Assembly: GCA_022844135.1 (NCBI GenBank)
Contig: JALHMG010000008.1
Span: forward strand, 1 to 64,000
Length of the DNA: 64,000 bases
Source: Lysobacterales bacterium
GTDB taxonomy: Bacteria; Pseudomonadota; Gammaproteobacteria; Xanthomonadales; SZUA-5
Direction of reading: 5' to 3'
Each line of letters begins with the position of its first letter. The stretch's first letter is position 1. Under the pieces are notes generated by a model. That model searched no databases. It saw only the letters and a list, made by a program, of their open reading frames with translations, and was not told the origin of the DNA. The position numbers and the translations under genes are program-made. Below, piece by piece: positions 44,049 through 63,310 of the stretch.

Positions 44049-44561
44049 TCAGGTCAATTGCGTAGCAATCCAGCCGCGCAAGAATCGCAACTCGCGAACG
44101 ACGGTAGCAGCAGAGATACCTAAGGCTTCTGCGGTTTCGTCTTGCGTGAATCCCCCGAAATACTGCAATTCAGCGATCTTGGCCTTGCGCGCGTCGGCCT
44201 TCGCCAGATCGCTCAGCAACAGGTCCAGTTCCAGCACGCGCAGCCCACCACAATTGGGGGGCAGGTCGGCCGTGCGCATGGTGACGCGCACCGGCGCCTC
44301 ACCGCGTTTCAAACTCAGTTTGCGGCGCGCGTGCTCGACCAGAATCCGCCGCATTTCCGTCGACGCCTGGCGCATGTAGTGCGCGCGATCGACAAAGCCC
44401 ATGTGCAACGCACTCAATCGCAGATAGGCCTCATGCACCAAGTCGGTGGGTGCCAGCGTGATCCCCGCCGGTTCGCGCCGCAGGTGACGCTGCGCAATCT
44501 CGCGCAACAGCGAATGCAGGTCCCCCGTCCAGAGCATTTCGTTTGCAGCGGACATGGTCAT
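44049..44561 (-). CDS. ECF RNA polymerase sigma factor (TIGR02999-like)
   Basis: 170 residues from ATG 44561; ATG 44555 is also possible and the frame extends to 44663. Region 2 contains REPAGITLAPTDLVHEAYLRL and a DRAHYMRQASTEMRRILVEHARR helix. Region 4 ends with a helix-turn-helix: FGGFTQDETAEALGISAATV. This matches the ECF subgroup with the LAPTDLVHEAYLRL signature, which often sits beside Ser/Thr kinases. No anti-sigma factor is seen, and the kinase gene follows directly. It diverges from the gene for a large secreted protein that starts 141 bases away and may be a target. Confidence 0.9.
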   Translation of the reverse strand: MTMSAANEMLWTGDLHSLLREIAQRHLRREPAGITLAPTDLVHEAYLRLSALHMGFVDRAHYMRQASTEMRRILVEHARRKLSLKRGEAPVRVTMRTADLPPNCGGLRVLELDLLLSDLAKADARKAKIAELQYFGGFTQDETAEALGISAATVVRELRFLRGWIATQLT

Positions 44562-44702
44562 GAGGCACCGACAACGCCGCGGATCTCGATGAGAGTTTCG
44601 ATACGCATGACGGAATCCTCTCCGATTTCGCGCCTTTTCGAAAGTGGGCAGAGCTTCAGCCAATCAGGGCTGATGGCGACTTCGGCAATTGGAGACAAAA
44701 AA

Positions 44703-47700
44703 ATGCAAATCGGCATGAACAGGTTGTCTGACGTGGGTATGCGGCACATCGACACGGGCCGCATCGATCGTCATCGCGGCAGCGCTCAAGGTTACATTCG
44801 GCGTCTGGTGCTCGGCTGGGCTGCGCTCGCACTGGTTGGTACCAGCGTACCCGGTTTCGCCGCCATCATCACAGTGAATAGTTCGGCGGATGCTGGTGGT
44901 ACCTGCCCTGGCGCTTCATGCACTTTGCGTAGCGCCATCGCTGCGGCCGCAGCAGGCGACACCATTAACTTCAGTGTGCCCACGGTCACCTTGACGAGCG
45001 CCGAGTTACTGATCGACAAAAATCTACGGATTTTCGGTGGCGCCGGTGTGACCGTTACGCGCCAGGACGGCAGCCCAGACTTCCGCATTTTCCAGGTCGC
45101 TGCAGGCGCCGAGGTGGAGTTCAGAAACCTCACCATCAGCAACGGCAGAAGCGGGAGTGGTGCCGGGGTCAACAACCATGGCTCGCTGCTGGTGTCAGAC
45201 AGCGCCATCCGGAACAACCAGTGCATCGGCAGCGGCAACGCTTCCGGGTGCGGCATGTTAAACAACAGTACTGGAGTACTGACGCTGAGCAACACCAGCG
45301 TCCACGCCAACAGCACGGTAGCCACTGCTCAGAACAGGGGTGGCGGCATCTACAATGCTGGTGGCCAGTTGGCACTCGCCAGCAGCGCGGTATATGAAAA
45401 CACGCTGGCCTCCGGTGCCTCGAACTTTGGGGCTGGCATCGGCACCAGCCCGACGGGCCTCGTGGAGATCTTCGAAAGCCGCATTGCGGATAACCAAAGC
45501 GCGGGTACTCAGGCGGTCGGCGTTGGTGTTTTTAACCAGAGTACGATGATTATCCGCCGCAGCACGGTATCCGGCAACATCGCGGAGTCCAGCGGCGCCA
45601 ACCTGGGCGCCGGTATCTTCAACGAAACCGGTGCATCGCTCACCGTCGACAACAGCACTCTCTCGCGCAACAGGAGCCCGATCAGGCCGCCCAACAGGGC
45701 GAACGGTGGTGCCGGGCTGTTCAACGACGGCGGTGGTCGGGTTGTATTGATTGCCAGCACGATCACCGCCAATGAGGCGAACTCCGACACCGGCCGCGGC
45801 GGGGGCACCCATTCGGACGGCCTGCTGATCGTGAGCAACAGCCTGATCGATGGCAACAGTTCCACAAACGGCCCATCGGACATCGGGGCCAATCTGATTT
45901 CAGCAGGCCACAATCTGCTCGGCAACAACGCCGGGGTCACGATCAGCGGCATCAGCACCGGCAATCAATTCAACGTGCAAGAGTTGGTCTCGCCATTGGG
46001 TTCATGGGGCGGGCCGCTGTCCACCCACGCGCTGTTGCCGGGCAGTCCAGCCATCAATGCGGGTGCAACGCCTTCGGAAATCCAGCAGCTCACGGTCAGC
46101 GGCACAGCCGGCACGTTCACCCTGACCTTCAATGGCCAGACCACCGCCCCGCTGGCCTTCGATGCCAGTTCCAGCGCAGTGCAGGCCGCGCTGGAAGGCT
46201 TGTCCAGCATCGGCAACGGCAATGTGGTGGTGGTCAGTGGAGCGACGCATGTTGTGATGTTCACGGGCGCCCGGGCTGGCACTAACCTTGCGGAAATCAC
46301 CAGCGCAGGTGCGGGTGGCGCCAGCGTCGCCCAGCGCACGCTGTGGAACGGCGGCTCGCTGTTCATCGACCAGCGCAGCGTTAACCGCCCGCAGCAAGGC
46401 ACGCCGGACATCGGCGCTTTCGAATCGCGCGGTTTTACGTTGGCGATCACGAGCGGCGACAACCAGATCGCCAACGTCAATGATCCTTTCCCGACGCCGC
46501 TGAGCCTCAGTGTGACCGGCACCGGCGGCGAACCGGTCAATGGCGGACGCGTGAGCTTTACACCACCGGCGAGTGGTGCCAGCGCGAGCGTCAGCCCCAA
46601 TCCAGTGACCATCAGTGGTGGTGCAGCGACGCCCACCACGGTTACAGCCAACGGCACCGTCGGCGGGCCCTACCAGCTGGCCGCCGCAGCACGCGGCGCA
46701 AACACAGTGAACTTCACTCTCAGCAACCGCGCCGCACCCGTCCTGTCGATCGGCGACGCCTCGATCACAGAGGGCAACAGCGGTACGCAGGTGCTGACGT
46801 TCACCGTCACCAAGCAGGGCGAGTCGGCCTTGCCGATCAGCTTCAACTTCGCCACCGCCAACGACACGGCTACGGTCGCCGGCAACGATTATGTCGCTGC
46901 CTCCGGCACCGGGACGATTCCGGTGACCGGCGCTATCGGCACCACCACGATCAGCGTCACCATCAACGGCGACTCGGCCATCGAAACGGACGAGCAGTTC
47001 TTCGTCAATCTCAGCGCACCGCAGCGCGCCGTGATCGGCGATGGACAGGCGGTCGGCACCATCGTCAACGACGACCAGCAGACGACCACCACCACGATCA
47101 CCACGACGCCTTCGCCCTCCGTGGTCGGCCAGGCCTATACCGCGAACATCAGTGTCAGCGGCACGCAGCTGTCGCCCACCGGGACTGTGAGCGTCAGCGA
47201 TGGCGTGAGCAGTTGCGGCCCGCTCACCCTGGTCGCCGGCACTGCACCGTTGAGCACCGCCAGCTGCACGCTGACCGGCACTGCGGCGGGCACGCGCACG
47301 CTCACGGCCAGTTATGCCCCGGCCGATTCGCGTAGCCTCGCGAGCAGCGGCACGACCAGCCACACGGTCAACCTCATCGGTACCACGGTGGCTGTCACTG
47401 GTCCCAGCCGAGTGCGTATGGGCGTCCCGGCCAATTTCGTCGCCAGCCTGACGGTCAACCCCAGCGGCCAGCCGGCGCCCACGGGTACGTTGACGCTGTC
47501 GGTCGGCTCCAGCAGTTGCACGGCGACCTTGCCGAACACCAGTTGCAACATCACGATACCGCTTACGCCCGGTCCGGCCACCGTCACCGCCAGCTATAGC
47601 GGCGACAGCGCTCATGCTTCGGCGACCAGCAGTGGGGCCGGGAATCTGCCGCTGGCGATCTTTGCCGTGGCCGATGCGACCGTCATCAACAGCAATGGCC

Positions 47701-48092
47701 GGACCACCTATCTGCCCGGCGAATTACTGGTTTACACCGTGGTTGTCAGCAATGCCGGCCCCGATCCGATCCACGCCTTGCGGATCAGTAATCCGGTGCC
47801 GGCAGGCTTGATCAACGTTAGCTGGACGTGCGCCGCAACCGGTGCCGCCGAGTGCCCAGCCGCCAGCGGCAATGGCGGAATCGACCGCAACATCCCCCAG
47901 CTGCCGCTCAACGGTACGCTTGTTTTCACCCTGGGCGGCACGGTCGACGGCAGCCCGCCGCAGATCACCAGTACCGCATCGCTGTCGTTGCCGGTCGACA
48001 ACTCTTTGGAAGACCCGAACCTCAGCAATAACAGCGTCAGCGATACCGATCAGCTCGAAGTGCTCTTCAGGAACGGATTCGAGAGTCTGTAG
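44703..48092 (+). CDS. Large secreted repeat protein with Calx-beta, Ig-like and DUF11 domains
   Basis: 1129 residues from ATG 44703, with GGAG nine bases upstream; the open frame begins much earlier but overlaps the sigma gene. A long signal peptide (LVLGWAALALVGTSVPGFA) is followed by a right-handed beta-helix beginning with GASCTLRSAIAAAAAGDTINF, a start typical of secreted polymorphic repeat proteins. Asn/Gly-rich helix turns continue to about residue 440. A module around LTFNGQTTAPLAFDASSSAV follows. A Calx-beta domain (ITEGNSGTQVLTFTVTKQG ... GTIVNDDQ) lies near 690-800, then two Ig-like domains, then a DUF11-like domain (YTVVVSNAGPDPIHALRISN). The protein ends LFRNGFESL, a tag shared with another secreted protein in the window. 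A cell-surface or exported structural role is likely. Confidence 0.8.
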   Translation: MQIGMNRLSDVGMRHIDTGRIDRHRGSAQGYIRRLVLGWAALALVGTSVPGFAAIITVNSSADAGGTCPGASCTLRSAIAAAAAGDTINFSVPTVTLTSAELLIDKNLRIFGGAGVTVTRQDGSPDFRIFQVAAGAEVEFRNLTISNGRSGSGAGVNNHGSLLVSDSAIRNNQCIGSGNASGCGMLNNSTGVLTLSNTSVHANSTVATAQNRGGGIYNAGGQLALASSAVYENTLASGASNFGAGIGTSPTGLVEIFESRIADNQSAGTQAVGVGVFNQSTMIIRRSTVSGNIAESSGANLGAGIFNETGASLTVDNSTLSRNRSPIRPPNRANGGAGLFNDGGGRVVLIASTITANEANSDTGRGGGTHSDGLLIVSNSLIDGNSSTNGPSDIGANLISAGHNLLGNNAGVTISGISTGNQFNVQELVSPLGSWGGPLSTHALLPGSPAINAGATPSEIQQLTVSGTAGTFTLTFNGQTTAPLAFDASSSAVQAALEGLSSIGNGNVVVVSGATHVVMFTGARAGTNLAEITSAGAGGASVAQRTLWNGGSLFIDQRSVNRPQQGTPDIGAFESRGFTLAITSGDNQIANVNDPFPTPLSLSVTGTGGEPVNGGRVSFTPPASGASASVSPNPVTISGGAATPTTVTANGTVGGPYQLAAAARGANTVNFTLSNRAAPVLSIGDASITEGNSGTQVLTFTVTKQGESALPISFNFATANDTATVAGNDYVAASGTGTIPVTGAIGTTTISVTINGDSAIETDEQFFVNLSAPQRAVIGDGQAVGTIVNDDQQTTTTTITTTPSPSVVGQAYTANISVSGTQLSPTGTVSVSDGVSSCGPLTLVAGTAPLSTASCTLTGTAAGTRTLTASYAPADSRSLASSGTTSHTVNLIGTTVAVTGPSRVRMGVPANFVASLTVNPSGQPAPTGTLTLSVGSSSCTATLPNTSCNITIPLTPGPATVTASYSGDSAHASATSSGAGNLPLAIFAVADATVINSNGRTTYLPGELLVYTVVVSNAGPDPIHALRISNPVPAGLINVSWTCAATGAAECPAASGNGGIDRNIPQLPLNGTLVFTLGGTVDGSPPQITSTASLSLPVDNSLEDPNLSNNSVSDTDQLEVLFRNGFESL

Positions 48093-52550: not shown

Positions 52551-55259
52551 TCAGGGGCTTGGCGCACTTCTCGCGGCGCGCAACTCCGCAAGAGTCTGGC
52601 GCGTCATTTCGCGCATCTGCGCGTGATGCTCGGAGGATAGGTCGGACTCCAGCTGGGTCAGCAACGGCTCCGCCTCCGCGTAGCGTTTCAGCCCCATCAG
52701 CGAGCGCGCGTGTCGCAGCGGTGCCAACAGGGCGTGTTGCGCTTCGGCGTCCATGGCGATGCGCGATTCTGCCAGCAACTGCGCACTCAGACGCTCGGCC
52801 TCGACCCAGCGCTCCTGGCGCTGCAGCGAGCCGGCGTACTGATAAAGCACGCGCAGTCGTTCGCCATCGCCAGCCGGGAACAGACGCTCTGTGCTGCGCA
52901 GAATGGCGGCAAATTCGACATCCGCCGTCGCGAAGTCGCCCATATTGCGCAATAGCGCCGCATATTCGGAGCGCGCCGCCAGCGTCTGTCGATGATCGCG
53001 ACCGAAGCGCGCTTCGTTGCCGCGAATGGCAGCTTCGCGCAGCGGTTTGGCGTCCGCGTGGCGTCCCTGGCTTGAGTACACGACGCTCAGGTTAATCGCG
53101 GTTTGCAGCGTTTCCGGATCGGTCTGACCGCGAATGTCCACTCGCCGCCGATAGGCGCTTGCGAGCAAGGCCTCGCCCTCGGCGGCTTGTCCTGCAAGAA
53201 ACAGCAGTCTGCCGAGATTTTCATCGATAGTAATCCGAACCTCGTGCCCACTTTCGAGCGTTTCGAGTGCGAGTTGTGCCGCTGCGTTCAGACGCTCCAG
53301 TGCCTGCTCTCCGTTGCCGATACGCTCCTCGATCATCGCCCAATTGTTTTGCGCGTTGAGGGTTTGCCAATGGCCCTTGCCCAGCAGGCGCTCGCGCTCG
53401 GAGGCGACGGATTCGATCTCCTTCAGCGCTGCGTCCGGCTTTCCGGCGTCGCGCAGCAAATTGGCGTACTCGAGCGAGACGCGAAGCGTGTCCGGATCGG
53501 TCGGCCCCAATTCGGCAATCGCATATTGTTGGCTTGCGAGCAGAGCCCGCAGCGCTTCATCAGCGCGCTCATCCGTGGCCAGAATGCGCGCACGTTCGAT
53601 GCGTGCATCGAGTTCGAGTCGCGTGCGCCAGCTGGCGATGCATTGCGCGCATTCGTTGGGCGTCTTTATGTGCGACAGAACCCAATCGAGTTCATCGAGT
53701 GCGACGTCGGTATCGCCCATCTGAATCAGCGTTTTGGCGTGCAATGCAGTGACCATCAACGCGACCGGTGTCGTCGATGTGCGCAGCTCAGCCATCATCG
53801 GTTGCAAAATCTCGAGTGCGTCGAGCACGCGTCCGCTGTCGTACTCGATTTGCGCTCGTCCCAGGCGCGCCGATGCCAGCGCCGAAGCGTCGGCGTTGGC
53901 CATTTCGTAGTCGCGTTCGGCGGCCAGAAAATACTCGCTCGCTCGCGGCAGATCGCCCATCGCGCGCCAAGTTTCCGCCAGCGCCGCGCGCATCCGAGCC
54001 CGCGCCCGCGGCGCATCCGCAAGATCACGTTCCAAGGGCGCATCGGCGCCGGCCATCACTTCTTTGACCGTTACCTCTCGACCTTGGGCGAACATCGGGT
54101 TGGCGCTCGACAACAAGCCGAGCATGAGCTGGAACATGGAATCGGCTTCGCGTCGTTGCGCCTGTTCGCGGAGCGCGAACTGCGTGCTGATGCCGACTGC
54201 GGCAATCATCGCAACGAAGACGATGACGATTGCCGCGAATAGCGCCACGTTGCGCCGCGCGAAACGGCGGATGTCGGCGAACACGCTGGCGCGCCGCGCC
54301 AGAATCGCCTCGTCGCAAAGAAAACGGCGCAAGTCTTCGCTGAGTTCCGCGGCGTTGCGATATCGCTGGTCCTTCTCCTTCGCCAGCGCTTTCTGGAAAA
54401 TCGTCTCCAGATCCCCCGAAAAGCGCCGGTCGTAACGCGACAACGGCGTCGGCGCCACGTCGCATATCTGCTGCAAGGCGTGCGCGAGATTGTGTCCCGT
54501 CACCTCATAGGGTAAGTCGCCGGTCAGCATGCGATAGCCGATCATGCCGAGCGCATACACATCGGTACGGATATCGACCGCGCCCGGCTCGCCCATCGCT
54601 TGCTCGGGGCTCATGTAGGCGATCGTGCCGACGACCATGCCAGCCGTAGTCAGGTCGCTGGTCCCACGTTCCTCGCCAACCGAAAGCCGCGCGACGCCAA
54701 AGTCCAGTACCTTGGGTTGGCCGTCGGACTGCACCAGAATATTGCCGGGCTTAAGGTCGCGATGAATAACGCCGCGGATGTGCGCATGTTCGATGGCTTC
54801 GCATACCCGCCGCAGCAGACTCAATCGCTCGCGGACGTCGAGTGCGGCACAAGCCTCCAGCAAAGGCGCACCCTCGACATACTCCATGACGATATACGGC
54901 ACGCTGCCCATCGATGGATCGGTGCGGCCGCTGGCATAAATCTGGGCGATGCCGACGTGCGTAAAGCGCCCGAGAATTTCTGCCTCTTGTTGGAAGCGGG
55001 CGAGAAGTTCCGCCTGATGCAATCCCGCGTGCAAAGTTTTGATCGCCACATGGCGCTTGGGGTGTTTTTGTTGGGCGAGAAACACCACACCCATGCCACC
55101 GGCGCCGATAACACGAACGATCTTGTAGTCGTCGATCTCGCGCCCGATCCAGGCCGACGGGCCCGCCAAGCCTGGCGATGAATTGGAGTTCGACAGGCGC
55201 GACGGGGGGTCGATCGGCTGGACCGAGGTAACGGACGACAGGGCAGAGCGTTCAATCAT
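52551..55259 (-). CDS. Transmembrane Ser/Thr protein kinase with TPR region
   Basis: 902 residues from ATG 55259. The kinase domain spans about residues 40-310: VIGAGGMGVVFLAQQ (glycine loop), VAIKTL, HRDLKPGNIL, VLDFGVARL and GTIAYMSPEQAMG are intact. A transmembrane helix (VALFAAIVIVFVAMIAAVG) lies near 338-360. The C-terminal 540 residues are TPR repeats. Compared with the kinase at 41.2-44.0 kb it has the same layout but lacks an adjacent sigma factor. It is upstream of metH on the same strand with 134 bases between, probably unrelated to it. Confidence 0.88.
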   Translation of the reverse strand: MIERSALSSVTSVQPIDPPSRLSNSNSSPGLAGPSAWIGREIDDYKIVRVIGAGGMGVVFLAQQKHPKRHVAIKTLHAGLHQAELLARFQQEAEILGRFTHVGIAQIYASGRTDPSMGSVPYIVMEYVEGAPLLEACAALDVRERLSLLRRVCEAIEHAHIRGVIHRDLKPGNILVQSDGQPKVLDFGVARLSVGEERGTSDLTTAGMVVGTIAYMSPEQAMGEPGAVDIRTDVYALGMIGYRMLTGDLPYEVTGHNLAHALQQICDVAPTPLSRYDRRFSGDLETIFQKALAKEKDQRYRNAAELSEDLRRFLCDEAILARRASVFADIRRFARRNVALFAAIVIVFVAMIAAVGISTQFALREQAQRREADSMFQLMLGLLSSANPMFAQGREVTVKEVMAGADAPLERDLADAPRARARMRAALAETWRAMGDLPRASEYFLAAERDYEMANADASALASARLGRAQIEYDSGRVLDALEILQPMMAELRTSTTPVALMVTALHAKTLIQMGDTDVALDELDWVLSHIKTPNECAQCIASWRTRLELDARIERARILATDERADEALRALLASQQYAIAELGPTDPDTLRVSLEYANLLRDAGKPDAALKEIESVASERERLLGKGHWQTLNAQNNWAMIEERIGNGEQALERLNAAAQLALETLESGHEVRITIDENLGRLLFLAGQAAEGEALLASAYRRRVDIRGQTDPETLQTAINLSVVYSSQGRHADAKPLREAAIRGNEARFGRDHRQTLAARSEYAALLRNMGDFATADVEFAAILRSTERLFPAGDGERLRVLYQYAGSLQRQERWVEAERLSAQLLAESRIAMDAEAQHALLAPLRHARSLMGLKRYAEAEPLLTQLESDLSSEHHAQMREMTRQTLAELRAARSAPSP

Positions 55260-55384: not shown

Positions 55385-58204
55385 CTACGGCGACTCGAAA
55401 CCGTTCGCAAACACATCGCTCACGCGCGCCGGTACAACAATGTACAGGACGCGGGAAGCCTCGCTGCGCAGATCGCCCGTCGCGTTGTCGACCAGCGGGA
55501 AGCGGACGCGGTTGGGCGATATGAACTGCGCGCCGTTGACCGTGTGCCATTGCAACGTCAGTGGATTGCCGACGCTCAGCGGTCCGTAACGGCGCAATAC
55601 CCATTGGCCGCTGGACAAATCCTCGCCATGCAGGATCAGCTGCATCGTGGCGTTAAGGCACTCGACATGCTCAAAGCGGATCGCCAACGGAAAGGGCGAA
55701 AATTGCGGGTCTGAGGGAAGCTCATCGATATCCACGAAGTGGGCGTCGACCAGCTGCTCGCAATTGCCGTCACCGAGCAACAGTTCGATATCGCTCAGCG
55801 TGCCTTGTTTGCTCTTGCCGCCCTTCGCCGCCGAGGTGCCCACTGAATCCCCGAAGCTGGCAACATCGGGCTGCAGTCGATCAAGAACATTGTCGCCATT
55901 GCCGTCGCCGACGTTCGGCGCCAGATTCTCTACTTCGTCGCTCGGGCCGTCGCTGTCATCGTCGGGCACGCGCGTTAGGCTGAAAACGCCTTCGCCCGTC
56001 CCCGCGTGCAGTGTTGGGGGTGCCGCGCTCGGTCGGGAAATGGCAACTGCAGCCGCCGAATCGATCGGCATGCCGATCGACACCGACAACCAGGAATCTC
56101 CGCCGTTTTCGCTGACGTAAACGCCGCCCGGGCTGGTATCGACGCCCGCCGCACCGGCGATGATGCGTTGCGGCGTCAGCGGATCGACGCGCAGCGAGCG
56201 TACAACTTTGCCGACGATCCCGGTGTCGCTGCGCGTCCAGTTGCCCCCGCCGTTAACGCTTTTGTAGATACGGCCAGGAATGTCTTCATCGCTGGGATCT
56301 TGCACCGCCACCAGCAGCGTACCGCTGGTACCTGGAACGGCGATCAATGCCGTCACGTCCCACGGACTGGTGGTGCCGCCACCGATACGCGGCAGACCAT
56401 CGTTGATCGGCGACCAGGTGACGCCGTTGTTGGTGCTTCTGAACAATCCGTTCGGAATCGTTGGAAGTGGATCGACGTCCGGGTCGTAGCCGACAATCCG
56501 AGTGCCGACAATGACGCGGGTCGGCGTGCTCGGGTCGAAGGAGATATGGAAAGGTCGCGGGTACTGCTGATTCGGTGTGCAAGTACCGAGCGGCAGATTA
56601 TCGGCAGGAGCCCAGGACGTTGCGCCGTTGACGCTGCGCCAAACGCGCGCAACGCTCAGGCTGGGCGTAACGCCGGCACAGCTGACTCGTCCATCGTTGA
56701 CGAAGTAAAGGTTTTGCGAAACGAATCCGGCGACCTCAGTGGGATCGACGATGAGCTGGCGAACCACACCCAGACGGCTCGGTCCGCCGGCCGGCACCGG
56801 GATCAGCGTGTCTGCGGGCGCCCAGCTCACGCCAGAATTGCCGCTGACAAAAATGCCGCCGCGGTAGCTGGTTGTCGGCAAACCGAGCGGCGCAAAGTCG
56901 GCGCCGACGGCGTACACCCGCACACTTGCCGGCGCCAGCAGGTTGGCCGGATCGTGGGTGATGCCCTGCACCGTGTCCAGCAGCAGGTTGCTGTTCGAGC
57001 GCACCCAGCTGGCGCCAAAGTTGTCGGACAGGAACAACGCCGGCGATGTGGCCTCGCTGCGATCGTTGCGAACGCCTGCGAGCAGACGCTGCGGCCGACC
57101 GGGTTGTACCGACAGGGATTCGACGTCCGTGCCGCGCAATCCAAAACTCGAAGAAGTCCAACTACTGCCGGCATTGGTGGTCACGAAGACCTCGCCGGAC
57201 ACGGAAAACGCCAGCCAACGCGCCGTGTTCGACGGATCGATGATCACCGGCCCGATCGATGCGGCATCGACACCGTTGATGTTCAGACCGGTATTGCGCG
57301 CCGAAAACCCGTTGCCGTTGGTCGCCGTGATCAACACGCCTTCGCTGGTGCCGAAAATCGCTCGGCCCGGCGTTGTCGGATCGGACGCAATGCTCTGCAG
57401 CCGCTGCGTGGCGGACGGCAGCAGCGGCGCCAGACTGGTAAACGCCAGATTGTTGATGGAACGAAAGGCGCCGAATTCGCCGGCGAGGAAGATGCTGTTG
57501 GCAACATTGCCGTTGTAAGCCAACAACTCCAGCTCGTCCTGGATGGGCCCGCCGCTGTCCCAGGGACCCGTTATCGGCGTGAAATTCACCCCAAAATCCA
57601 GAGACCTGTAGAGGCTGGCGGGGAACGTTGTGGTATTGCGCGCGCCGGCCCAAACCAGCACAGTACCGAGATTGTTTGGGTCTGCAGCCACCTTGTTGAG
57701 CGCCTGCGGCAACGTGGTGCCGCCGCCGCTGCTCCACGACAAACCGCCGTCGCTGCTGCGATACAGCCCATGATCTTTGGTGACCACGTAGAGTTTATTG
57801 CCGTCTTGCGGCACATAAGCGATGTCGACCGTGCGGAAGTTCGCATTGCTGACTGGCAGCCCCACCTCGCTGCGCTGCCAGCTACGGCCGCTATCGTCAG
57901 TCCGAAAGACGCCACGTGCGCCTGCGAGCATCAGACGTCCGGCGATGGTCGGGTGCGCAATCACCACCGCCTCGTCCTCTTCGATGGTATTCAAGCCCGC
58001 GCTGGCCAAAATCCAGCTGGCGCCGCCATCGACCGAGCGGTACACGCTTCGATGCGAAGTCGCATACAAGTTGTTGGCTTGCAACGGGCTGGCGATGGCG
58101 CTGTCGACGCGTCCGCCATAGGGCCCCTCACTGCTCCAACGTCCCGGCGCCGCCCACCCCTGTACCGCCAAAAAGGCCAACATCCACCCAAAACCACGAA
58201 TCAT
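55385..58204 (-). CDS. Large secreted propeller protein with Asp-box repeats
   Basis: 939 residues from ATG 58204, where a GGGGG ribosome site and a signal peptide (GFGWMLAFLAVQGWA) occur; the longer frame to 58393 is unlikely. Repeats such as RSVDGGASWILASAG, RTDDSGRSWQRS, RSSDGGLSWSSGG, VTTNAGSSWTSS and VSENGGDSWLSV are Asp-box/BNR motifs of sortilin- or YCF48-like beta-propellers. The C-terminal 200 residues (around DDSDGPSDEVENLAPN onward) are a separate domain. The protein ends VFANGFESP, sharing the NGFES tag with the 44.7-48.1 kb protein. The ligand is unknown. Confidence 0.8.
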   Translation of the reverse strand: MIRGFGWMLAFLAVQGWAAPGRWSSEGPYGGRVDSAIASPLQANNLYATSHRSVYRSVDGGASWILASAGLNTIEEDEAVVIAHPTIAGRLMLAGARGVFRTDDSGRSWQRSEVGLPVSNANFRTVDIAYVPQDGNKLYVVTKDHGLYRSSDGGLSWSSGGGTTLPQALNKVAADPNNLGTVLVWAGARNTTTFPASLYRSLDFGVNFTPITGPWDSGGPIQDELELLAYNGNVANSIFLAGEFGAFRSINNLAFTSLAPLLPSATQRLQSIASDPTTPGRAIFGTSEGVLITATNGNGFSARNTGLNINGVDAASIGPVIIDPSNTARWLAFSVSGEVFVTTNAGSSWTSSSFGLRGTDVESLSVQPGRPQRLLAGVRNDRSEATSPALFLSDNFGASWVRSNSNLLLDTVQGITHDPANLLAPASVRVYAVGADFAPLGLPTTSYRGGIFVSGNSGVSWAPADTLIPVPAGGPSRLGVVRQLIVDPTEVAGFVSQNLYFVNDGRVSCAGVTPSLSVARVWRSVNGATSWAPADNLPLGTCTPNQQYPRPFHISFDPSTPTRVIVGTRIVGYDPDVDPLPTIPNGLFRSTNNGVTWSPINDGLPRIGGGTTSPWDVTALIAVPGTSGTLLVAVQDPSDEDIPGRIYKSVNGGGNWTRSDTGIVGKVVRSLRVDPLTPQRIIAGAAGVDTSPGGVYVSENGGDSWLSVSIGMPIDSAAAVAISRPSAAPPTLHAGTGEGVFSLTRVPDDDSDGPSDEVENLAPNVGDGNGDNVLDRLQPDVASFGDSVGTSAAKGGKSKQGTLSDIELLLGDGNCEQLVDAHFVDIDELPSDPQFSPFPLAIRFEHVECLNATMQLILHGEDLSSGQWVLRRYGPLSVGNPLTLQWHTVNGAQFISPNRVRFPLVDNATGDLRSEASRVLYIVVPARVSDVFANGFESP

Positions 58205-58668
58205 TGCGTTTCCCCCTGAAAGCGACGCAAACTCTATCCGACTCACTGTAATGCGCAACTTAAGGCCGCGTTTGCAAACCAGTTCCGCATTTCCAGCTAC
58301 GCCATCGGCCGCCATCCTGGCGACTCGCCGTTCTGAGGACGCGCTGCGCGGCCTGCACGGCATCCAGGCGCAGCGAAATTCTGCGATCAGCATTCCGAGC
58401 TATGGCGAATCCTTGGCAGTGGTCTGGTCTCTGGTCCGTTCGCCCAGGCGTGAGAATTGTGCGCCGCCGCCAGCGCGTAGTCGACCGATGCCTGTCGCAT
58501 AGAAGCGGCTGGTGTCGCTCAGATCTGCGCCGCGCCGGAATCGAGATTCGCTATGTTGGAAGCTGGATCGTGAGAATCGAAGACGTTACCGCTCTTGCCA
58601 GAATGGCGGCCTGTGCCGACCGTTCGGCTGAGCTGCCTTGTTCTCAGGAACGGCCGTATCCGCTGCCA
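58205..58668. other. Gap before the toxin-associated cluster
   Basis: About 460 bases with no supported gene. Two overlapping plus-strand frames lack motifs and a ribosome site. It probably includes the promoter of the propeller gene on its left side and the end of a cluster of small minus-strand genes on its right. Confidence 0.5.
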
Positions 58669-61152: not shown

Positions 61153-61371
61153 CTAAATATCGCTTTTGTTGTCAGTTCTCATTCTCATGGAATTGTGAGC
61201 ACCGCACGTGGGGCATCTCATATGTCGCTCAATCAACGACGCGTCGGTTGGTGACGCTATGTCCAAGACCTCGAGAAAGTCATCCGACGATTCGGGGCAG
61301 ATGACCTTCACCGTTGGATCTTTGGCCAGGATCACCGCCGCCTGAACCCAAAGCATATTTTGCGACCTCAT
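61153..61371 (-). CDS. Candidate immunity protein coupled to the Rhs tip
   Basis: 72 residues from ATG 61371. The start overlaps the stop of the Rhs reading frame (ATGA), so translation is coupled. The sequence begins MRSQNMLWVQAAVILAKDP, then VKVICPE, and ends MRCPTCGAHNSMRMR, giving three cysteines in a zinc-ribbon-like arrangement. Immunity genes normally follow directly after Rhs toxins, so this is the best candidate for the cognate immunity protein. Confidence 0.65.
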   Translation of the reverse strand: MRSQNMLWVQAAVILAKDPTVKVICPESSDDFLEVLDIASPTDASLIERHMRCPTCGAHNSMRMRTDNKSDI

Positions 61372-62909
61372 AGCCCTAACCTCTTGGCGCCCCGTTCAGC
61401 AAAGTCAAATGCCGCAATTGTCTCCTCCGTCGCGAGGGACCTTGACACTCCATTTGTAGCCGTGCTGTGGCGTAGACGATAAAGCTCATGAAGCAAGGTC
61501 CGACCTAGCTCACCGTCGGAGCTGAATGCATTTCTCCCGAGTACAAAACCGTCGTCTCCGAACAAAGTCATGCCCGATGCCGGAAGGTCGGGCGCGTACA
61601 CGATCGTACGCGGTCCAACACTTATGGAAGCTTCCAAATTGGAGGCATGAGCCGCACGAAGTACACTCATCTGCGAAGAACCTAGAATCTCTGAGGCTTC
61701 CGAAAGCACCATCGCTTCGCTTGACGTAAAACCTCTAGCCAGATCATCCGTCGCCGATGCAGTCCCTGCCGCCCGACTCTCCAACCTCAATGCCACAAAT
61801 CCGGCAGAGCCCGGCGCCGCAGGGCTAAGTCCGGACGCAAGATCGGCCCCCATCCCCATCGTTTCGCTTCCGGTGAGACCAACTACTGCCTGGTTCACCA
61901 ACGACCGATGCGGAAATCCGGACGTAAACTCGAGCCATCCCGCTGCTGCTTGATCCGCACCCAATAGCGCCACTAGGAAACACGTTCCAGAACACGGATT
62001 CGGTGTACCGCCTGCAATTGCGCCGCCAGCGGCGGTAAGTCCTCCTCCCAGCATTCTCAAGACGCCCAACGCGCGTGTCCAGTTCGAAGCATCGCTTTGC
62101 TGTGAACGATTTTCTTGTGATCCCACGCGTTCAGGTGCGCGGTCATTTTGTGTGTAGCCACTCGGCGGCTGAGCAAGGTGTGCGCCGTTTGTATTCGCTT
62201 CGGGAGAGCCGGAAACGTAGGTTATTCGCAGGAAGTTGGGACCATAGCCGCCACACGAGGGAATTCTCGATCCCGTGTAGGTGACGCAGTACCCACTCGG
62301 ATCCGTCCCGCTCATCGGGTTGTTCATCAAGTACGAGTATGGATTAAGGCTCTGGCTGTTGGCTGGGAACTGGATGAACGGATCGACCGCGAGGAAACGA
62401 CCGAGTTGGTAGTCGTAGGTGCGGCCGTTCATGTGGATCAGACGGGTGTTGTCGAGGTGCTCGTGGTCGGTGAAACCGCGGTTTTGCGGGGGATCGAGAT
62501 CGAGGCGGCCACCGATGCGGTCGGTGAAATCTCCGTTGCGTGCTTTCCCGAAAGCGTCGAAGCTGCGGCGTTCGGTGATGGTGCCGGTTGCGTTGCTGAG
62601 CGCCACGGTGCTGCCCAGGCGATCGGTGTGGCGATAGGTCACCACTTTGATGCCCGTCGCGGCACTGGCGCCGGTGATGTTGACGATCATTCCGGGCAAG
62701 TGGTGGCGATGCTCAACGGCGCCCGCGCGGTAGTTCTTCTCGTATCCGCCTCGGCCGTAGAAAGTCTCCACACCATCGCTCTCGCGATGCCGGAATCGCT
62801 GTCCGTCAGGCGAATACGCGAACCGATCCATGCCGCCATTGATGCGCGTCACGCTCCACGGCAGGTTGTCGTGATCGTAAACCGCCGCAAGCGTGTTTCC
62901 ACCGACCTG
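61368..62909 (-). pseudogene. Rhs C-terminal tip fragment with toxin-like end, 5'-truncated
   Basis: Rhs-type sequence begins near 62909 (VGGNTLAAVYDHDNLPWSV) and runs about 510 codons. The Rhs core is recognisable by TYRHTDRLGSTVALSNATG, TYDYQLGRFLAVDPFIQ and LNPYSYLMNNPMSGTDPSGY, which closes the core. After it come about 300 residues of variable C-terminus ending with LGRTLLHELYRLRHS and LATEETIAAFDFAERGA, probably a toxin domain of unknown type; the HELYR stretch is not a full zinc HExxH motif. The frame extends 50 codons further upstream, but that part is an out-of-frame reading of the VOC gene. The shell-forming part is missing, so it is either a displaced tip for recombination into another Rhs gene or a dead fragment. 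Confidence 0.75.
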
Positions 62910-63310
62910 CTTACGCGAAACACATGTCCATCCGGATGGCGCACGTGCATTTCGCGGACGCCCCATTCCATGTCTGTGGGTGGCCAGGTGATATCGAGGC
63001 CGGCGGCCTGGCATGCGGCGTAAACGGCATCGACATCGTCGACCCAGATCGACATCCACACACCTTTATCGAGCGAATCGTCGCCATCGCGCCCGAAGGT
63101 GCGCGCGATGCCGCTGTTGCCGCGGCTGCCCTGGCCGTCGACGCAGAGGAAGATAGCAACCTCGCCCGAGCACACGCTGCCGAAGGCGGGCGGGTCGCCC
63201 CAGGAAAAGCCGCGCGTCCATCCCCACTGCTCAAACCAGACCATGCTGGCTTCCAGGTCTGATACGTTGAGCACCGGCGTCAGGCCATGCGCGTTGATGG
63301 CGAAGCTCAT
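62849..63310 (-). CDS. VOC-family (glyoxalase/bleomycin resistance-like) protein with altered C-terminus
   Basis: 153 residues from ATG 63310, in an ATGA overlap with the ABM gene stop. TPVLNVSDLEASMVWFEQWGW, FLCVDGQGSRG, WVDDVDAVYAACQAAGLDI and MHVRHPDGHVFRV are typical VOC strands. From about residue 134 (codon around 62910) the sequence enters the Rhs fragment in another frame, and the last 18 or so residues (SVETRLRRFT...) are foreign. The native end is thus lost by fusion with the Rhs tip. The core fold is almost complete, so function may remain. Confidence 0.75.
   Translation of the reverse strand: MSFAINAHGLTPVLNVSDLEASMVWFEQWGWTRGFSWGDPPAFGSVCSGEVAIFLCVDGQGSRGNSGIARTFGRDGDDSLDKGVWMSIWVDDVDAVYAACQAAGLDITWPPTDMEWGVREMHVRHPDGHVFRVSRSVETRLRRFTITTTCRGA

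Follow-up and report, generated by a model that had tools for sequence, protein, structure and literature searches.

The stretch of DNA analysed here (hereafter the window) comprises 64,000 nucleotides, bases 1-64000 of contig 8 of a genome (G000) of 5.34 Mb in 75 contigs that is 99.8% complete. It encodes two putative exported proteins that end in nearly the same peptide (Table 1). The open reading frame of protein 1 spans positions 44142-48092 on the forward strand, with the likely start at about 44739, at the predicted signal peptide, and positions 48060-48092 translate as V-L-F-R-N-G-F-E-S-L-stop. The frame of protein 2 (55385-58393, reverse strand) has a likely start at 58204 and terminates in S-D-V-F-A-N-G-F-E-S-P-stop. 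The two proteins have no family in common, and a signal peptide is predicted for both. An earlier sequence-only reading had described them as unrelated, exported proteins with the ends LFRNGFESL (48060-48092) and VFANGFESP (at 55.4 kb); the ends are as described, and the assignment to different families and the prediction of export held as well. When the last 150 residues of protein 1 were modelled with AlphaFold without an alignment, the mean pLDDT was 40, and the model was set aside. Next to the gene for the tagged propeller protein lies one for a Ser/Thr protein kinase (52551-55259, reverse strand) whose C-terminal part is a long repeat region. The window also contains an RHS/YD-repeat-like ORF (61368-63059, reverse strand) with a variable C-terminal part, which resembles polymorphic toxins by eye only.

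Table 1. Features of the two tagged proteins encoded in the window.
Feature	Position	Strand	Remarks
Tagged exported protein 1	44739..48092	+	Domains choice-of-anchor Q, Calx-beta, Big_3_5, DUF11; start inferred from signal peptide
Signal peptide of protein 1 (predicted)	44739..44864	+	In-house scorer; long n-region, ends ...VPGFAA; exact start uncertain
C-terminal tag of protein 1, VLFRNGFESL	48060..48089	+	Core FRNGFE at 48066-48083
Tagged exported protein 2	55385..58204	-	Sortilin/BNR propeller; start inferred from signal peptide
Signal peptide of protein 2 (predicted)	58148..58204	-	In-house scorer; MIRGFGWMLAFLAVQGWAA
C-terminal tag of protein 2, VFANGFESP	55388..55414	-	Core FANGFE at 55394-55411

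The pattern TTYNNNRAYGGNTTYGA (F-x-[ND]-G-F-[ED]) has 86 matches in this genome (44 forward and 42 reverse) as opposed to five (4+1) for the reversed-pattern control. After merging of copies, 85 distinct sites remain: in 51 of these the tag ends exactly at a Glu followed by the stop codon, and in 69 it lies no more than 13 codons from the stop; the others include one site at 24 codons and 15 that are at least 30 codons away or have no stop in the sequence examined. The F, G, and F of the 69 terminal sites are fixed by the search pattern itself, and flanks that were not part of the search are conserved too, with V/L/I/M at position -1 in 62 sites and D/E at -3 in 42. Within the tag, A or R occupies +1, a position not set by the search, in 56 of the 69 sites, N is preferred over D at +2 (58/69), and E is found at +5 in all 69 although the pattern equally allowed D. 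The consensus is [D/E]-x-[V/L/I]-F-[A/R]-[N/D]-G-F-E, located at or near the C-terminus. The trailing Ser, which the sequence-only reading had included in the tag (NGFES), does not belong to it: the core is F-x-[ND]-G-F-E, and the Ser in the window copies is incidental because 51 of the 69 terminal tags end at E, the other 18 continuing with A, S, N, L, Q, or D. The terminal tags are encoded by 56 different 18-mers, so that it is the peptide that is conserved, and a DNA repeat as the source of the tag can be ruled out. Neither a transmembrane helix nor a basic tail follows the tag, and there is no room for a helix, given that 51 of the 85 sites stop at Glu and 69 lie within 13 codons of the stop.

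Approximately 10 matches are internal in exported proteins, at apparent domain borders (loci L040 and L078, which encode RHS/YD-type proteins, L104, L092, L098, L108, L113, and L125) or just after the signal peptide. In L104, the tag lies between an N-terminal domain and an FnIII-like stretch. In L065 and L091 (contigs 40 and 4), it is located at the mature N-terminus, directly after the signal peptide (DIVFVNGFEG and DLVFTDGFEP, respectively). A free C-terminus might thus not be needed, a possibility suggested by the internal tags.

The proteins that carry the tag are highly diverse. Of the 69 terminal-tag proteins, 53 were aligned. The remainder were excluded because the 5' end was open, because no signal peptide was called, or because they were shorter than 90 or longer than 1250 aa; signal peptides are accordingly present in this set by selection. 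The alignment contains only four invariant columns, all of them in the tag (F, G, F, and E). Between them, the 53 proteins match 53 Pfam families, including FG-GAP, sortilin, beta-helix, S8, M14, M28, and M12 peptidases, CotH, RCC1, and esterases, and the choice-of-anchor Q model is matched by eight. Export was assessed on tagged ORFs of at least 200 aa without prior selection for signal peptides: a signal-peptide score of at least 3 was obtained for 36 of 40, compared with 145 of 363 untagged ORFs from the same loci (Fisher p 8e-10). The scorer, a simple one of our own, is lax at the threshold of 3, which accounts for the large share of untagged ORFs that pass. G090, which represents an independent lineage, has 18 tagged ORFs, 15 of which score at least 3.9. 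The tag is thus real and selected, C-terminal, and carried by exported proteins. The sequence-only reading, which would have been refuted by a lack of enrichment among exported proteins, passes this check with a strong enrichment; its proposal of a sorting or processing signal on such proteins is supported, the actual role of the tag being only inferred. Two tagged proteins (L033 and L117) have a lipoprotein-type leader, as read by eye, and a third (L159, from G012) has a Tat-like RRRGF leader. Judging from sequence alone, these leaders would suit a transport signal for folded periplasmic cargo more than an anchor.

Comparison of dioxygenase homologues, which come from only three genomes, shows the tag as an addition at the protein end in G012: this copy ends ...VGVAIEGSDLLFADGFE, whereas those of G180 and G003 end ...LIVGIAV and ...LIVGVSGPA, respectively. 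Among 30 loci with sortilin-family homologues, most did not cover the C-terminal end, and the comparison was set aside for this reason; none of the five that reached it is tagged. Very small exported proteins of approximately 90-100 aa with a GGSY/SYxLxGGF-type repeat form a family that has the terminal tag in several Lysobacterales families (L086, L110, L116:9594-9863, L333, L335, and L338). At another locus (L163, G149:C2:209500-229400), three tagged paralogues of 883-888 aa are encoded in tandem. The end reads FANGFD in two of them and FANGFE in the third, and the only paralogue scanned is a DUF5122 propeller.

The stop-anchored strict pattern TTYNNNRAYGGNTTYGANTRA has matches in 83 of 200 genomes of the same order, with up to 45 per genome, and its reversed control yields 0 to 2 matches in these 200 genomes. 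Outside the order, no genome among 249 sampled across the phylum has more than one match. A scan of named genomes produced at least 110 matching stretches; the carriers include Lysobacterales MAGs, Dokdonella, Rudaea, Tahibacter harae, Aquimonas voraii, and Marinicella species, in agreement with the similar GFE endings that the sequence-only reading had ascribed to other secreted proteins of Lysobacterales. Single matches in Bacteroidota, Bacilli, and others are likely due to chance. In numbers, the tag is confined to one order, Lysobacterales, and is patchy even there: among genomes at least 90% complete, family f2 includes 34 without the tag and a single one with three or more tags (G090, with 18), and family f12 includes 29 without the tag and four with 6 to 25 tags.

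No unbiased profiling was carried out in the search for a partner machine; two candidates, GspD and C13, were tested genome-wide. An all-against-all comparison of the neighbourhoods of tagged genes in nine genomes revealed no transporter or protease common to all of them; the recurring genes encode ECF sigma factors, Ser/Thr kinases, and housekeeping proteins. Near tagged genes, kinases account for 25 ORFs in five genomes (with clusters in G000, G014, G024, G031, and G149) and ECF-like sigma factors for nine ORFs in six genomes; regulation of the tagged genes by these proteins is possible. The legumain-like C13 transpeptidase was tried as a tag reader because [N/D]-G-F resembles the sites of known Asn ligases. 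This candidate was rejected since its distribution does not match that of the tag: C13 is absent in the tag-rich genomes G002, G003, G005, and G008 and present in tag-negative f12 genomes, e.g., G022 and G039. In G016 and G034 (family f5), C13 is multiplied, with 12 and nine matches, respectively, most of them in frames of 1200-3600 codons.

The secretin model for the type II secretion system (T2SS) detects GspD in 53 of 54 genomes, including matches above the model cut-off in 25 of 27 tag-negative genomes; therefore, T2SS as such does not track the tag. The matches, however, are of two kinds. The second, common T2SS (kind B) does not track the tag either. GspD of kind A (GspD-A) is a protein of approximately 620-700 aa whose gene belongs to a gspC-D-E-F set in the vicinity of rho, trxA, rhlB, ftsE, ftsX, and rpoH-like genes; these gene names come from reading the sequences, and only GspC and GspD are confirmed by models. 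Other GspD-A proteins share 45-51% identity with one kind-A GspD, compared to 27-32% for the other kind. A search of the 200 genomes with a GspD-A query gave 107 matches, of which 98 were counted; excluded were nine f2 matches with E values of 1e-61 to 1e-70 that cover the C-terminal half only. The GspK model PF03934 was discarded as a T2SS marker, being a short helix-hairpin-helix model with most matches in ORFs of approximately 100 aa. One genome, G037, contains a second cluster of T2SS genes (L397). Tagged genes are found near gspCDEF-A in G109 (L179) and G036 (L189), too few cases to weigh.

The tag co-occurs with this one T2SS lineage, T2SS-A. Among genomes at least 97% complete, all 34 with at least three strict tags possess GspD-A, and the 75 that lack GspD-A have no more than one tag each; 15 of the 49 GspD-A genomes carry fewer than three strict tags. 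Across all 200 genomes, 60 have both, five have tags only, 38 have GspD-A only, and 97 have neither. The five tag-bearing genomes (of 65) without a GspD-A match, G048, G052, G117, G122, and G181, are 77-96% complete. The association recurs within families, again counting genomes at least 90% complete: in f2, one genome has tag and GspD-A and 34 have neither; in f12, the respective numbers are four and 29; in f8, two genomes have both, one has GspD-A only, and 21 have neither. In f9, the tagless genome G019 (100% complete) has no T2SS match at all. These statistics ignore shared ancestry, and the independent evidence amounts to about four family-level contrasts (f2, f8, f9, and f12); what is shown is co-occurrence only. 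Of the co-occurring transporter or protease that the sequence-only reading had suggested looking for, a distinct T2SS fits the former; no protease is common to the tag neighbourhoods of the nine genomes compared.

T2SS-A genomes with few or no strict tags were searched further for variants. A looser pattern, in which the G may be any residue, was applied to 46 genomes and exceeded its control in G037 (8 vs 1), G017 (5 vs 0), G072 (6 vs 0), G113 (9 vs 4), and G162 (5 vs 1) but not in G118 (5 vs 5); it had no matches in the T2SS-A genomes G009, G044, G051, G088, and G108. In G037, seven of the eight ends are FxDRFE or FxDRFD; G017 has FADSFE, G072 has FxDSFE along with FxDGFE, and G113 has FxDTFE and FxDSFE. 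FADRFE, too, is among the variants in T2SS-A genomes that lack the strict tag. In G037, G017, G072, and G113, the variant tags are mostly found on proteins with signal peptides. Across the 200 genomes, more than one match to the S/R variants occurs only in GspD-A genomes or in G117 and G122, which are tag-rich f9 genomes without a GspD-A match. Position 4 of the tag thus drifts by lineage, and F, D/N, F, and E/D stay. Because some T2SS-A genomes have no tag of any form that was found, T2SS-A is not sufficient for the tag, although, as inferred from co-occurrence, it appears to be necessary. In family f10, T2SS-A is found both with and without tags. Even within a genome that carries T2SS-A, a homologue can lack the tag, as does the G003 dioxygenase. 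A C-terminal PDZ region is recognizable by eye in all 15 GspC-A sequences that were read; Pfam supports it in the five that were scanned, above the curated cut-off in two. Loss of this region was not seen in tagless T2SS-A genomes: G009, G118, and G051 have retained the PDZ of GspC despite fewer than three strict tags.

The best single interpretation, which may as well prove wrong as right given that it is inferred from co-occurrence without binding or secretion data, is that the tag is a short linear export signal marking periplasmic proteins for T2SS-A. Under this scenario, the tag would be an addition behind the last domain of proteins that reach the periplasm by means of their predicted signal peptides. 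After folding, it would remain as an exposed tail to be bound by a periplasmic part of T2SS-A, the candidates being GspC-A with its PDZ domain or GspD-A, and the protein would then pass through the GspD-A pore. Such a tag would allow cargo sorting in cells that also hold a second T2SS. In favour of this inference, T2SS moves proteins that are already periplasmic, and cells with two T2SS need sorting; furthermore, the PDZ-type region of GspC reads cargo in Vibrio and Dickeya (PMC12369372, PMC7949064). Against it, the tagless T2SS-A genomes keep the GspC PDZ, and an anchoring enzyme of the same distribution is not excluded. A bolder version, on which the balance still tips slightly to the negative side, is that T2SS cargo is addressed by a portable linear tag at the C-terminus, F-x-[N/D]-G-F-E, which would be without precedent, and that position 4 of this tag (G, R, S, or T) drifted by lineage in step with its reader in T2SS-A.

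The main rival, which remains possible, is that the tag is a processing or anchoring signal: an unidentified enzyme of the periplasm or outer membrane would cleave or modify it, for example at [N/D]-G, and fix the protein to the surface. This enzyme could even act once T2SS-A has exported the protein, much as some T2SS cargo is handled by rhombosortase. C-terminal tags shared by many proteins are usually read by one processing enzyme (PMC3237569), choice-of-anchor Q, a domain that occurs with different anchors, has model matches in eight of the 53 carriers, and [N/D]-G is chemically labile. However, neither a helix nor a basic tail follows the tag, and in 51 of 85 sites the Glu is the last residue, so that nothing would hold the tail in the membrane for an intramembrane protease; the C13 legumain-like peptidase is not co-distributed with the tag; the tag neighbourhoods of the nine genomes compared share no protease; and L033 and L117 have lipoprotein-type leaders, next to which another anchor would be redundant.

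The remaining alternatives carry less weight. That the tag is read within the periplasm, whether to bind a chaperone, to serve quality control, or to shield the protein from tail-specific proteases, is unlikely: the extreme C-terminal position in 51 of 85 sites would fit, but the tag is limited to one order and patchy there, tail-specific proteases are general, and the link to T2SS-A is not predicted. Still less plausible is that the shared ends have no function and were copied from a single 3' gene end that is mobile or duplicated. A few recent duplicates exist (the three tagged paralogues of L163; L002 and L049, which share an end), but the 69 terminal tags have 56 different 18-mers, the 53 aligned proteins, with their 53 Pfam families, lack any invariant column outside the tag, and lineages differ at position 4 but retain F, D/N, F, and E/D. 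That two C-termini are alike by chance, for which nothing speaks beyond the two window copies taken alone, is all but excluded by the 86 matches vs five in the genome and the 0 to 2 matches of the stop-anchored reversed controls in 200 genomes.

The choice of T2SS cargo is an open question: recruitment has been described as elusive, with no common linear sequence apparent (2021 paper, PMC7949064). Here, dozens of proteins per genome carry a nine-residue tail whose occurrence tracks a single T2SS lineage. Should this tail be a true secretion signal, it could be employed as an export tag and would mark dozens of unknown proteins in each genome as extracellular; should it instead be an anchor signal, it would represent a C-terminal sorting system of novel design, without a helix. 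No prior description of the tag was found in the open-access literature searched, although an earlier description is not ruled out.

In LPXTG/sortase, PEP-CTERM/exosortase, GlyGly-CTERM/rhombosortase, and MYXO-CTERM/myxosortase, unrelated exported proteins are likewise alike only at the C-terminus, and the distribution of the signal follows one machine (PMC3237569, PMC11980579). The tag resembles these signals in being common to many unrelated exported proteins per genome. However, they are tripartite, consisting of a motif, a transmembrane helix, and a basic cluster, whereas the tag is a nine-residue motif usually followed by nothing; lacking the helix and the basic tail, it is not a signal of the PEP-CTERM or GlyGly-CTERM type. 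Of the two candidates compared genome-wide, moreover, the co-distributed machine is a T2SS, in contrast to the intramembrane protease or sortase of those systems. With the C-terminal domains of Type IX secretion, the tag has in common the C-terminal location, the diverse cargo and, as proposed, an outer-membrane system. T9SS signals are whole folded domains of Bacteroidota, in contrast to this short linear tail in gammaproteobacteria. No NCBIfam C-terminal signal model, including those for T9SS, is among the 25 most frequent families of the 53 carriers, and the PorZ matches among the carriers are propeller matches.

The closest functional parallels to the proposed role are PelI and Pel3 with Out and VesB with Eps, in which periplasmic, signal-peptide-dependent cargo is recognized by GspC and GspD (PMC12369372, PMC7949064); the PDZ-dependent signal in the Ig-fold of VesB can be grafted onto a reporter (PMC12369372). 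Two properties expected of T2SS substrates are met by the tagged proteins. A Sec or Tat signal peptide is predicted for most of them (36/40 vs 145/363 for untagged ORFs, 15/18 in G090, and a Tat-like leader in G012), and tag-bearing genomes have a T2SS (GspD-A in 34/34 genomes at least 97% complete, the five exceptions being 77-96% complete). The known T2SS signals are structural and cargo-specific, with no common linear sequence reported (PMC7949064), whereas the tag is one linear tail on many folds.
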